The notes under the pieces: model-generated
Databases searched by the model: none
What the model was told of the DNA's origin: nothing
The model's input: the letters and a program-made list of their open reading frames with translations, nothing else
NCBI GenBank assembly: GCA_017523325.1
Contig: JAFWWO010000017.1
Coordinates: forward strand, 1 to 64,000
DNA: 64,000 nucleotides
Direction of reading: 5' to 3'
From: Anaerotignum sp.
Lineage (GTDB): Bacteria; Bacillota; Clostridia; Lachnospirales; Anaerotignaceae
Shown here: piece by piece, positions 737-24,958 of the stretch
Numbering within the stretch: the stretch's first letter is position 1
Layout: every line of letters begins with the position of its first letter
Program-made: the position numbers and the translations under genes

Positions 737-1966
737 ATGAAGACTGTTGCCCAGCGTTTTTTAGAATATGTAAAACACCCTACCACATCTGACGAATATG
801 CCGCCTCTTACCCCAGCACCGCTACGCAGCTGGAATTTGCGGCATTTCTGGCAAAGGAATGTGAAGAAATCGGTCTGCAAGCCGTATCCGTAGATGCTTA
901 CGGCTATGTCACCGCCACCCTCCCTGCTACGGCAAAGCAGGCGCCTACCATCGGTTTTATTTCCCATATGGACACCAGCCCCGATGCAAAAGGCGACGGC
1001 ATCACCCCTTGTATAACGGAAAACTATGATGGCGGCGAAATTCCCTTAAAGGGCATTACAATCACTCCCGAGGAATTTCCTTTCCTAAAAGAATATATCG
1101 GACAAACCATTCTCACTTCCGACGGCACTACTTTATTAGGCGCCGATGATAAAGCCGGCATCGCCGAAATTCTTTCTGCTATGGAGTATTTGGCAGCACA
1201 TTCCGAAATCCCCCACGGGGAAATCCGAATTGCATTTACGCCCGATGAGGAAATCGGCAAGGGCGTTGATTTTTTTGATGTGAAAGCCTTCGGTGCAGAC
1301 TTTGCCTATACCATAGACGGCGGAAAAATCGGTGAACTGGAATACGAAAACTTCAATGCGGCCCGTGCTGTCATTCGCATTCACGGAAAAAGCGTTCATC
1401 CCGGTACGGCAAAGGACATCATGGTCAATGCCGCTTTAATCGGTGCAGAAATCGCCGCCGCTCTTCCTGCGGAGGAGACCCCTGCAAAAACCGATGGCTA
1501 TGACGGTTTTTTCCATCTCTGTTCTTTTGAGGGAAATGTTTCCTCTGCCGTTCTTACCTATATAATAAGAGATTTTGACGAAAACTCCTTTGCCCGGCGA
1601 AAAAAACGCATAGAAACCATCGTTGCAGAGAAAAATAAGTCATATCCCGACAGAATTTCCTTGGAGATACGGGACGAATATTATAATATGGCATCCCAAA
1701 TTGCTCCACACATGGAAATCGTGGAGTTGGCAAAGCAGGCAATGGAAGATTGCGGCATTACGCCAATCATACAGCCCATACGGGGCGGCACGGACGGCGC
1801 CCGTCTTTCTTTTATGGGCTTGCCCTGCCCCAATTTGTTTGCCGGCGGGCATAATTTCCACGGGCCTTACGAACTGATTCCCGTTTCATCTATGGAAAAA
1901 GCCGTGGAAATGATTGTGCTGATTTGCGAATTGTCAACAACCCTTGACTTTCCGAAAAACTTATGA
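737..1966 (+). CDS. pepT: peptidase T (tripeptide aminopeptidase)
   Basis: 409-residue M20-family metallopeptidase of the PepT group, which removes the N-terminal residue from tripeptides in the cytoplasm. Visible are the first metal-ligand motif HMDT (H77, D79), the LLGADDKAG segment carrying the bridging Asp, the TPDEEIG segment with the catalytic and binding Glu residues, and a C-terminal GGTDGARLS followed by the last His in GGHNFHGP. Length matches the family. The ATG at 737 is chosen because AAGGAGG precedes it; an open frame extends to 686 but lacks a ribosome site and overlaps the promoter. The next transcript (tyrS leader) starts from a promoter lying inside the last codons of this gene. 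Confidence 0.95.
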   Translation: MKTVAQRFLEYVKHPTTSDEYAASYPSTATQLEFAAFLAKECEEIGLQAVSVDAYGYVTATLPATAKQAPTIGFISHMDTSPDAKGDGITPCITENYDGGEIPLKGITITPEEFPFLKEYIGQTILTSDGTTLLGADDKAGIAEILSAMEYLAAHSEIPHGEIRIAFTPDEEIGKGVDFFDVKAFGADFAYTIDGGKIGELEYENFNAARAVIRIHGKSVHPGTAKDIMVNAALIGAEIAAALPAEETPAKTDGYDGFFHLCSFEGNVSSAVLTYIIRDFDENSFARRKKRIETIVAEKNKSYPDRISLEIRDEYYNMASQIAPHMEIVELAKQAMEDCGITPIIQPIRGGTDGARLSFMGLPCPNLFAGGHNFHGPYELIPVSSMEKAVEMIVLICELSTTLDFPKNL

Positions 1967-3761: not shown

Positions 3762-6098
3762 TCACATGACCTTCTCCACCGTTGTTCCCGGGAAATAATG
3801 GGCGATAATTTCCGCCGCAGTCTTGCCCTGCTCCGCCAGCTTTTTGGCACCGTATTGGCTCATGCCGACGCCATGGCCGCTGCCGCCGCCGTAAAGGGCG
3901 ATACCTGTCAGCTTTCCGTCGTCATTCCGCATTTCTTTCACAGCAAAATACCCACTGGGCAGCATGGTGTTCCCCGTTAAGCTGTCGCCGCTTTTGCGTT
4001 GGAGATAAATCGGCTCGCCGATGGTCAGCCTTGTAGGGGAAAGCAATTGCCGTATGGCATATTCCGTCTTGACCCGCACCGTACCTTTTTCAAACTCCAG
4101 TTGCAGCTCCATAATGATGCCGCCCCCACCCCGTCGGGTCACTTCCATTTTTTTCAGCCTGCCCATTGCCGAGGGGGTTCCTTGCCGAAAACTGCCATCT
4201 TCTTGGCGAATCTCTACCAAAAACGGGTTGATTTTTGCAATCTCCGCCATGGTTTTTTCCAAAATTTCCGAAAGCTGGCCACAGCCGAAATATACCTTCC
4301 AGCGATACCACGGAGAGTCCATATCATAACCCTCCTTCTGCCAATCCTGCCAAAAAGCCAGCCATTCCTCTTCGTTGGCAGGTGTTTCAAAATCCCCTTG
4401 GGCTTGGGCCTTTAAGTAGCTTTTTCCTTTTCCGCCGAATGTACCGTCCTTGGACCAAACCTCCTCCGCCCCTGCGCCAAATCCGCCGGAGGTGGAATAG
4501 TAATAGGTCATGGCTACTTTCCCGTCCGTCACAGCGCATAAGCCTTCCGTAGCTTTTATGGCGGCCCTAGCTGTTTCGTTTTCGGCAAACCCCAGATACA
4601 CTTGACTTGCCACCGTATCCGTGACATGGGCGCCGTATTCACAGTATGTATTGCCGAAAAACTGCTGATACGCATAGCTTCGGGCAGTAATGGCCTGCGC
4701 CTCCAGAGCCGTTTGCCCGAAGGCAGTCGGCATTTCATGGGGCACCACCCCTAATAAATAACGTTCCATAGGCAATTCATTGAGAACGGAAAAGCTGTTT
4801 TTTTGCCGCCGTTCCAATTCCAGCCTGCCTTCGTAATCATAGGCCGTACCGTCGGCAAACTCCAGCCTGATGGGACAACCATCCTTCCCCTCTGCCGTCA
4901 CAATACCAAAGTCAAACCACGGCAAATCCGCTGTTAATGCCGCCTTTGCATCAGTGGGAAACTCCTTTTTTCCGTTGCCGTTAGAAAGGGAAAATCCTTT
5001 CTGCGCCGAAAGGGTCACCGATGCCTGTTCCTGTCCTTTCAAAAACACCCGTATGTTTTTGGGCGGAACCTCCCGACGAATGACTGCACCAACGATTTCT
5101 CCGTTCTTCTCATAATATTCCGCACCGTCGGTACCGCAAATCAGTGCCGTAAAGTCGGTCTGCTTCAGCTCCTCCGGGCCATGGTATATTCTCGCCCCGT
5201 CTGCCCAGGGCAACAGCCCTTTTTCCGCCAGATAAACCTCACTCTTATCCACCCGCTTTACGGTGCATCGTCCCATATTTTCCGCCGGAGTCACTTCTGT
5301 CACCTTGCCCTCGGTCAGCTTGACATCTGCCAGCCCTTCTTCGACCTTCCCGCCATAGGGAAAAACAGCAGTGCCTTCGCCTGTCAAAAGCGTCAATTCC
5401 TCTCCGTTTTGTCTGCAATAAATATTCCGCACCACCGGGGAAAGGGCTTCCACCGTTTGCAGCAGTAAAATTTCCCCATCTTTTTCCAAAAACGTAATGC
5501 GGCAGTTTTCATAAGGACTTAAATCCTGCCCTGCCGCAGTAAAACTTCCTGTATCAAACAGGTTTGTTTTTTCCTGCATGGTCAGCAGCACTGCGTTTTC
5601 CTGATGTATCCCGTAGGAATAAAGATTTTCTTCCCCTCTGCGTGATTTTAATGCCGTTTCCAAAAGCTGCGCCCATAAATCATAGGAAACCGACATATTT
5701 TTGTTTTCGTCAGTCAATAAAATACGACTGTCATAATCCGGCGCCAGCCTGTCCATCAGAGCTTGTGCCTCCCATAGAGTCAAATCGTCCTTGGGGCGGA
5801 AATGCCCCTCTTCATCGCCGGAGAAAAACCCCTTCTCTACACTGCCGCAGATATAAGGATACGCCCAGCTTTCCGCTTTTACATCAGAAAAATCCATATT
5901 GCTCTCCAGCCCCTCCAATTCCTTCGGGGTATAAAAGGCCAGCGCAATGGTTTTTGCCGTCATTTCCCTGCTGATGGGAATATCGTTTCCGATTCTGCCC
6001 ACTTCAGCCCGCTCCGTTGCTTGTCCACCTAGTTTGCCCATACCACATCCGCTCAAAAATAAGGTCAAAAGACCAATGACTATCCAATGTTTCTTCAT
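3762..6098 (-). CDS. SpoIID/LytB-type lipoprotein with an N-terminal SLH-like segment
   Basis: 778 residues. The N terminus is a lipoprotein signal (hydrophobic run, then LSGC with Cys18), so the protein should be anchored outside the membrane; lspA, which would mature it, is encoded 0.5 kb upstream. Residues about 50-125 resemble an SLH module (FSDVKAESWAYPYI... GHFRPKDDLTLWEAQALMDRL). The C-terminal half is the SpoIID/LytB domain (RYLLGVVPHEMP, ALEAQAITARSYA, YYYSTSGG, GHGVGMSQYGAKKLAE, HYFPGT); characterised SpoIID proteins are peptidoglycan lytic transglycosylases. At 778 residues it is much longer than SpoIID itself, so a vegetative wall-remodelling role is possible. Start chosen for GGGAGG before the ATG at 6098; the longer open frame to 6155 runs into a terminator. 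Confidence 0.88.
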   Translation of the reverse strand: MKKHWIVIGLLTLFLSGCGMGKLGGQATERAEVGRIGNDIPISREMTAKTIALAFYTPKELEGLESNMDFSDVKAESWAYPYICGSVEKGFFSGDEEGHFRPKDDLTLWEAQALMDRLAPDYDSRILLTDENKNMSVSYDLWAQLLETALKSRRGEENLYSYGIHQENAVLLTMQEKTNLFDTGSFTAAGQDLSPYENCRITFLEKDGEILLLQTVEALSPVVRNIYCRQNGEELTLLTGEGTAVFPYGGKVEEGLADVKLTEGKVTEVTPAENMGRCTVKRVDKSEVYLAEKGLLPWADGARIYHGPEELKQTDFTALICGTDGAEYYEKNGEIVGAVIRREVPPKNIRVFLKGQEQASVTLSAQKGFSLSNGNGKKEFPTDAKAALTADLPWFDFGIVTAEGKDGCPIRLEFADGTAYDYEGRLELERRQKNSFSVLNELPMERYLLGVVPHEMPTAFGQTALEAQAITARSYAYQQFFGNTYCEYGAHVTDTVASQVYLGFAENETARAAIKATEGLCAVTDGKVAMTYYYSTSGGFGAGAEEVWSKDGTFGGKGKSYLKAQAQGDFETPANEEEWLAFWQDWQKEGYDMDSPWYRWKVYFGCGQLSEILEKTMAEIAKINPFLVEIRQEDGSFRQGTPSAMGRLKKMEVTRRGGGGIIMELQLEFEKGTVRVKTEYAIRQLLSPTRLTIGEPIYLQRKSGDSLTGNTMLPSGYFAVKEMRNDDGKLTGIALYGGGSGHGVGMSQYGAKKLAEQGKTAAEIIAHYFPGTTVEKVM

Positions 6099-6134
6099 TT
6101 CGTCGCCTCCCGGTACAAGTTTATGCAAAAACAC

Positions 6135-6163
6135 AAAAAAAAGAACGAGGAACATATTCGTTC
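6135..6163 (-). terminator. intrinsic terminator between the ncRNA and the SpoIID-type gene
   Basis: Minus strand: GAACGA, loop, TCGTTC then eight T (6135-6142). It lies 37 bp before the SpoIID-type start codon, so the gene either has a promoter within this short gap or depends on read-through. Confidence 0.7.
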
Positions 6164-6189
6164 ACTCGTCCATTCTTATTTTTTATAAA

Positions 6190-6547
6190 AAAACCCGAAA
6201 TGCCGGTCTTGCCTCTTGACACCTAGCCTAAGCCAGGTGGGTTTCCGCAGCCGCAGGATCTGCCTTCCTCTGCCCAAAGGGAATTATCTTGAGGCCTGGC
6301 ATACCTGCTGCATATAGGAATCCCAAGTCAGTTCTGTAGGTTCAAATATGGCAAGTTGTCGAGCATTTCAGGAATGTTACACCACTCAAGCCATGCACCG
6401 AAATTTATCTGAAAGACCGCTGAATGCTTGCATTCATAAGGGATTTTAGATGAATTTCGGTATAGGGCGACAGCCCTAACCGAAAGACCCATCGGGTCTT
6501 GAGGTTCTGCATGGCGATATGCGTTTCTCAACCCTATCGCTTAACTT
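6190..6547 (-). ncRNA. structured non-coding RNA of unknown class, about 355 nt
   Basis: A stretch of about 430 bases between lspA and the SpoIID-type gene contains no credible ORF but dense pairing on the minus strand. Visible helices: GGGTTGAG/CTCAA..CCC (6527-6534 with 6494-6503) around a GCAT/ATGC hairpin; a possible pseudoknot GCGATA (6535-6540) with TATCGC (6514-6519); a 13-bp stem with one bulge, TTTCGGTTAGGGC/GCCCTA(T)ACCGAAA (6456-6487); a helix CCGAAATTCATCT/AGATAAATTTCGG around a TGAATG/CATTCA hairpin (6398-6460); and a 3' domain closed by ATGCC/GGCAT and GCCTC/GAGGC that encloses the hairpin CACCTGGC-TTAG-GCTAGGTG (6220-6239). A promoter lies directly upstream and a T run (6189-6195) ends it. 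I see none of the hallmarks of RNase P RNA, tmRNA or SRP RNA. The raiA-type motif and 6S RNA are models I would test first. Confidence 0.75.
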
Positions 6548-6553
6548 AGGTTC

Positions 6554-6582
6554 ATTATACACCATTATGACAAAAACAGCAA
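6554..6582 (-). promoter_or_regulatory. promoter of the structured ncRNA
   Basis: Minus strand: TATAAT (6554-6559) preceded by a 17-bp spacer and a weak -35, TTGCTG (6577-6582). It sits immediately downstream of, and touching, the lspA 3' region. Confidence 0.65.
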
Positions 6583-23402: not shown

Positions 23403-23464
23403 AAATGCATCACCGTCCTTATTGGTTTGATTTGATTGCTAACGATGCAAGTGTTCTTACCTTC

Positions 23465-23587
23465 GCCGTGCCAATTCGCAGCCTTGCGGCTGCTCATCAC
23501 GGGCTTCGCCCTATGGGCATATATTTGTATAGGTACAGACCCATGTAAGCATTCGTCTGTCCCTATACAAATATATGCCCGCACGGC
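23465..23587. repeat. cloverleaf-like hairpin repeat, copy 1
   Basis: Outer arms GCCGTGC (23465-23471) and GCACGGC (23581-23587) enclose three hairpins: GCAGCC/GGCTGC (23478-23493), GGGC-TTC-GCCC (23501-23511), and a long stem whose 19-bp arms 23515-23533 and 23562-23580 pair perfectly, with an ACAGAC/GTCTGT tip. Copy 2 near 24.8 kb has the same plan with different arm sequences. It sits between two co-directional genes. No ORF with a ribosome site covers it. Confidence 0.8.
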
Positions 23588-23654
23588 TTATGCTTTCATG
23601 AACAGTATAACAAATTACCTGCCATTTTCAAAGTTCTTTTTCTAAATTCAAGAT

Positions 23655-24529: not shown

Positions 24530-24683
24530 CTTCTTCACCCTTTCTTTTTTGTTGCCCATTTGCATTTTTGTTGAGATATTTTTTTATCTTTTTGCCAACT
24601 TACAGGAAGCCTTCTTGCACAATCACTTTTGCAAAAATTATACCCCCTCGACTGTCGTTTCGGCGGGGTTTCTGCAAAAGCCA

Positions 24684-24715
24684 TGCGTATTCGCAGGCTT
24701 CGCCCTATGGATATC
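24684..24715. repeat. partial copy of the hairpin repeat
   Basis: GCGTATTCGCAGG is joined directly to CTTCGCCCTATGG. Compared with copy 2, the second hairpin and part of the third have been lost. The 60 bases to the right are unpaired and unlike the other copies. Confidence 0.55.
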
Positions 24716-24776
24716 CATTTGTGAACAGCCTGCCGTTTGCAAGCACCCGACTATTCGCCCTCTTTGTGGCTTTTTC

Positions 24777-24899
24777 GCCGTGCATATTCGCAGGCTGCCC
24801 CTGCTCATCACGGGCTTTCGCCCTATGGGTAGACATTCCTAAGCAGTCGAATGTGTGCAAACACACCCTCGCCTGCTTAGGAACCTCTACCCGCACGGC
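24777..24899. repeat. cloverleaf-like hairpin repeat, copy 2
   Basis: Same outer arms GCCGTGC (24777-24783) and GCACGGC (24893-24899). Inner hairpins: GCAGG/CCTGC (24790-24804), GGGC-TTTC-GCCC (24812-24823), and a long stem GGGTAGA/TCTACCC (24827-24833 with 24886-24892) continuing as TTCCTAAGCAG/CTGCTTAGGAA (24836-24846 with 24873-24883). The second and fourth helices differ in sequence from copy 1 yet still pair. It lies between divergent genes. Confidence 0.8.
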
Positions 24900-24958
24900 T
24901 CATTGCTTTCGTGGATATTATACCATACTTCTGTATAAAAAACCAACCAAATCCCGCC

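Follow-up and report, generated by a model that had tools for sequence, protein, structure and literature searches.

A 6S RNA gene in Anaerotignum sp. separated from its promoter by an antisense copy of a dispersed, hairpin-rich repeat

The region studied here (positions 6190–6582) is part of the window, i.e. the whole 64,000-nucleotide stretch of Anaerotignum sp. DNA that was analysed, and is enclosed by two minus-strand genes, a SpoIID gene with an SLH domain (3762–6155) and lspA (PF01252, 6591–7049). A first, sequence-only reading had noted that the space between them holds no credible protein and that one strand is densely folded, and both observations were borne out: the intergenic stretch comprises about 360 nt, and the RNA fold of the minus strand from 6547 to 6184 was more stable than those of all 100 dinucleotide shuffles (z −5.1). 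The TATAAT promoter that it placed upstream is likewise present as a perfect hexamer, and the T run that it gave as the 3′ end was found in the sequence. That reading had taken the region for one unassigned RNA. It is instead two things, a 6S RNA and an unrelated dispersed, hairpin-rich repeat lying between the 6S RNA and its promoter (Table 1).

Table 1. Features of the 6S locus and of the related copies in the window
Feature	Position	Strand	Evidence
T run 3′ of 6S	6181–6188	−	Sequence
6S RNA (RF00013)	6188–6377	−	Rfam model, 60.8 bits, cut-off 46.4; single copy, kept in congeners
Stretch gained between promoter and 6S core	~6374–6547 (borders approximate)		~168 nt net; not present at 6S loci elsewhere in the genus and family
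Dispersed three-armed palindromic element, antisense to 6S	6388–6516	+	Model R1, 71.5 bits
Outer stem of element, 7 bp	6390–6396 with 6509–6515	+	Model R1
Long variable arm, tip TGCTTGCA	6397–6461	+	R1 alignment; compensatory changes across copies
GGGC-GACA-GCCC arm	6465–6476	+	R1 alignment
Tandem G-A internal-loop arm (AACC-GA-AAGACCC...GGGTCTT-GA-GGTT)	6478–6506	+	R1 alignment
Small hairpin GCGATA...TATCGC between promoter and element	6514–6540	−	Sequence and fold
−10 element TATAAT, 6S promoter	6554–6559	−	Sequence; homologous −10 in congeners
−35 element TTGCTG, 6S promoter	6577–6582	−	Aligned with TTGCC-17-TATAAT of seven congeners; weak
Second window copy, near-perfect	23464–23589	−	R1, 131.3 bits; used to build R1
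Third window copy, near-perfect	24776–24901	−	R1, 131.4 bits; weak RF01699 match; used to build R1

When the region was searched with Rfam models, its 3′ half matched 6S RNA over the full model (positions 1–187) and above the cut-off, so that the RNA can no longer be called unassigned. Of the options that had been left open, 6S thus holds for the 3′ half, and raiA had no match; of the families named for an Rfam scan (raiA, 6S, SRP, OLE and ROOL), 6S exceeded its cut-off and the other four gave no match in the window or the region. The earlier statement that the RNA does not look like RNase P, tmRNA or SRP RNA agrees with the search, which gave no such match in the window or the region. Matches to Rfam miRNA families at a low threshold were rejected as long-hairpin artefacts.

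The 6S match is the only one in the host genome, and exactly one was also found in seven of the eight congeners, where scores ranged from 51.4 to 61.1 bits (60.8 for the host copy). The aligned 6S stretch is 83–86% identical to that of the congeners, and the aligned core 86–90%. The long irregular hairpin, closing stem and central open region typical of 6S were present in the model alignment, in an alignment of 25 relatives and in the predicted fold. Like the known 6S/SsrS RNAs (RF00013), the host copy combines a full-length match and a closing stem with a terminal T run and, as in the congeners, a position next to lspA. Because of the full-length score, the single copy and the congener-like scores and identity, the 6S RNA is intact by every measure available. 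6S RNA slows RNA polymerase by mimicking an open promoter, and the 6S part at this locus looks like an ordinary member of this well-known RNA, with RNA polymerase binding and pRNA templating as its predicted functions. In one congener, G005 (96% completeness), the genome contained no 6S match.

The host locus differs from the 6S loci of the congeners in the distance between promoter and core. In seven congeners the 6S promoter reads TTGCC-17-TATAAT, with 11–13 nt between its −10 element and the TCCTG that belongs to the closing stem of 6S; in the host, the −35 to −10 spacer is also 17 nt, but the −10 element lies 180 nt from TCCTG (6373), because about 168 nt have been inserted. The −35 element TTGCTG was not reported by a consensus promoter scan. 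A DNA query covering the whole region (411 nt) matched relatives only in the 6S part: strong hits in congeners and in other members of the family began at about base 205–245, and the upstream part remained unmatched. Among the relatives, in which the sequence-only reading had proposed to look for homologues, the 6S part alone is conserved. The 6S site was empty in all seven congeners. Used alone as a DNA query, the insert had no match of appreciable length in 58 genomes from the family, no second match within the host genome, and no match when compared by blastn with plasmids and phages. The order lspA, homologous promoter, 6S is the same as in the relatives, and the comparison of loci shows the insertion to be derived.

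Folding of the 5′ half favours the plus strand (z −11.2), opposite to the promoter strand, over the minus strand (z −6.8; −5.4 for the 5′ half of the minus-strand transcript folded alone). We built a covariance model, R1, from nine copies in the host genome with the insert excluded, and this model matched the insert over its full length (positions 1–125; E=1e-12 in 64 kb) as the third match in the window. Its placement on the plus strand agrees with the stronger plus-strand fold. Since R1 was built without the insert, the match shows, at the level of sequence, that the insert is a member of the dispersed family defined by R1, with its structured strand antisense to 6S, although a diverged one (71.5 bits as compared with more than 110 for most of its kin). 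The insert and the window copies have in common the outer 7-bp stem, the long arm with a TGCTTGCA-like tip, a GGGC-loop-GCCC arm preceded by ATA, and the tandem G-A arm, whose loop AUGAG...CGAAU is also present in other copies of the element. The GGGC-arm loops across copies are mostly GAA, GAAA or GCA. Hairpins of the type d(GCGAAGC) are unusually stable in DNA, which would fit folding as single-stranded DNA. In other copies the structured strand resembles a hammerhead core (UGAUGAG...CGAA), but this reading was dismissed: four helices meet at the junction, and G occupies the C3 position.

Further copies are found in the same window and throughout the host genome. In a folding-energy scan of the window, the intergenic stretches at 23.4–23.7 kb and 24.7–24.9 kb were among the few as strongly folded, and these harbour the second and third copies, each just downstream of a −10 hexamer. 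The second lies upstream of a fructose-1,6-bisphosphatase gene (PF06874) and the third upstream of a 290-aa gene without a Pfam match; a degenerate further copy (24679–24772, minus strand, 18.1 bits) stands in tandem with the third. The core pattern GGGCTN0-2CGCCCTAT occurred 26 times in the host genome as compared with once in a reversed control, and its occurrences were often in tandem, about 110 nt apart. R1 identified about 30 distinct places in the host genome, some of the listed matches being the second strand of one element. Among the host-genome copies, compensatory changes were observed in 22 of 42 pairs, a number that none of 500 shuffles reached, while slid structures gave 1–6 pairs.

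Across the order, R1 matched 43 of the 392 genomes sampled, which belong to 28 of 174 genera; outside the order, it also matched genomes from four more families of the class. Across genera, covariation was seen in 38 of the 42 pairs and 95.9% of cells were paired, as compared with 37–44% in slid versions, although this alignment leans towards the model because it was fitted to it. In 20 member-bearing loci of the order, no Rfam family covered the element. The repeat family is thus real, wide and strongly covarying, and has no Rfam entry above cut-off. In L145, a genome of another family, a 6S gene (1243–1448, plus strand) is followed directly by a family member (1501–1621, plus strand). Four loci from different Clostridia (L034, L037, L038 and L039) share a letter-identical stretch with one element (R1 44 bits), which suggests recent horizontal transfer; the L034 copy is upstream of an apparent GntR-type gene. 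At L036 (G344:C26, ~133225–133368) we observed a tandem repeat of about 58 bp with a hairpin AACCTCAAGACC..GGTCTTTCGGTT. Two elements of G006, L041 and L044, share the ACCTCAAGACC...GGTCTTTCGGT arm; as they are missed by R1, they were not counted as members.

Among named families, Clostridiales-1 (RF01699) comes closest, with only a weak match; Weinberg et al. (2010, PMC2864571) list it as probably an RNA and not cis-regulatory. Its model scored the third window copy at 33.9 bits (24898–24778), or 23.7 bits in a shorter scan of the copy alone, against a cut-off of 48; it gave no match to the insert at E≤5 and none in eight loci holding element copies. In the reciprocal comparison, R1 scored RF01699 loci at 12–22 bits. 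Clostridiales-1 RNAs occur above cut-off in eight of eight congeners, and in one genome (G064) an unusually large number of RF01699 matches, 32, was observed. Both families are multi-copy, sometimes in tandem and found in the same genus, and by eye they seem to share the AUGAG...CGAAU tandem-GA arm and the long arm with a TGCTTGCA-like tip. They differ in that the element has a GGGCGAAGCCC arm but no GATTGCGGGAG...GGAGCAATC arm and scores 24–34 bits, below the cut-off of 48. It may be that the families are distantly related and have exchanged arms; we do not claim membership. REP/REPIN and MITE-type repeats (PMC3733652, PMC10969869) resemble the element in being short, non-coding, dispersed, intergenic, palindromic and sometimes tandem, while the element is longer (118–160 nt), multi-armed and has helices maintained by compensatory change. 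As expected of a MITE/REP-like repeat, the element is multi-copy (about 30) and is absent from the orthologous 6S site of seven congeners.

To describe where the elements settle, we inspected their flanks. A TATAAT hexamer with at least 5 of 6 bases lies 18–27 nt upstream on the structured strand in 26 of 50 flanked elements, while shuffles expect 6.0, and a −10-like hexamer was present on the other flank in 3 of 50. Among host-genome copies, 14 of 17 have the upstream −10. Further elements come after the T runs of terminators, after a tRNA or after stop codons. On the plus strand, no −10 precedes the insert at 6S; the element is reversed there, so that the 6S −10 falls on its 3′ side. For this reason, the association with −10 hexamers would reflect site choice or tolerance more than a built-in promoter. 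Most likely, the element is a MITE/REP-like mobile repeat of the non-autonomous kind, which inserts next to −10 hexamers, the T runs of terminators and stop codons. Among the Y1 transposases checked in nine genomes of the genus, no mobilizing enzyme was identified: a link to a RAYT-like Y1 transposase is not supported, as Y1 occurs in only four of the nine and is not tied to the element. An origin from a phage or plasmid was rejected, given that blastn returned no match of the insert and no viral contig carries the core pattern.

These data bear on several ways of explaining the locus. That the whole region forms one bistable, unassigned RNA, as was originally proposed, agrees with a minus strand that folds better than its shuffles, but is scarcely tenable when the 3′ half is 6S, kept alone in relatives, and the 5′ half belongs to a dispersed family of its own, read on the other strand. 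The switch had been based on a shared strand, CCGAAA, given as 6457–6462; it actually lies at 6460–6455 on the minus strand, two bases off, and can pair with two TTTCGG stretches, one at the base of the long arm and one in the tandem-GA arm. We rejected the switch because the shared strand pairs within one arm and the alternative, tandem-GA partner has no counterpart in the alignment of other element copies. The suggested pseudoknot GCGATA/TATCGC (6514–6519/6535–6540) proved to be a simple hairpin. It is also very improbable that the 5′ half is an assembly artefact, with two contigs joined through a repeat. The host genome is a partial, repeat-rich assembly (80.5% complete, 65 contigs), but the insert is unique in it at the DNA level, so that a repeat-driven join is not expected, and relatives show the same arrangement of lspA, homologous promoter and 6S.

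If the element were instead a family of small RNA genes, a divergent form of Clostridiales-1 RNA with a −10 of its own, the 6S copy would be a plus-strand antisense ncRNA gene. Strong covariation, the −10 at a fixed distance (14/17 host copies, 26/50 overall) and the weak RF01699 match speak for this; we nevertheless consider it rather unlikely, since no such −10 accompanies the copy at 6S, many of the copies at other loci come after terminators or stop codons and have no promoter, and the RF01699 score stays below its cut-off. A role of the insert in 6S expression, in which the folded leader sets 6S release, be it through attenuation, controlled cleavage by RNase III or the like, seems still less likely. 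The insert does lie exactly between promoter and 6S, both parts are strongly folded, and L145 has a member directly after its 6S gene; against this, none of the other 6S loci examined in the genus and family has the insert, the selected structure is on the opposite strand, unlike what a sense leader needs, and the other copies adjoin unrelated genes. Taken together, the sequence establishes the 6S identity, the derived insertion and the family membership of the insert, and very probably the locus holds a single 6S gene whose ancestral sigma-A promoter was moved about 168 nt away by the antisense insertion of a dispersed element, and whose precursor would be trimmed. The repeat is most likely tolerated in the 6S leader.

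On this displaced-promoter explanation, transcription of 6S would still begin at the old promoter, with a start near 6547 on the minus strand, and would yield a precursor of some 360 nt, with its 3′ end at the T run that comes after the closing stem of 6S. Its leader would fold as its own domain, independent of 6S, because pairing inside 6S changes by only 1.7% between 6S folded alone and 6S within the long transcript. RNases would then free the 6S RNA, RNase III acting on the long arm and/or 5′ trimming being halted by the 6S closing stem, and the released RNA would act on RNA polymerase as usual, as an open-promoter mimic.

The new RNA class claimed for this region therefore falls away, as half of it is 6S, and what is still of interest is the repeat family: a global transcription regulator is separated from its promoter by a repeat, and the repeat belongs to a covarying family that is missing from Rfam although it spans at least 28 genera of a single order. 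Repeats of this kind are easily taken for novel classes of ncRNA. We suggest tentatively, as a possibility that remains somewhat doubtful, that they represent a widespread, undescribed Clostridia class of folded mobile elements that settle downstream of −10 hexamers and terminators and rewire many leaders, including that of 6S, with GNA-looped, tandem-GA and long variable arms kept by compensatory change, possibly moving as folded single-stranded DNA. Their preference for sites just after −10 hexamers makes these elements candidates for shaping gene expression in Clostridia.
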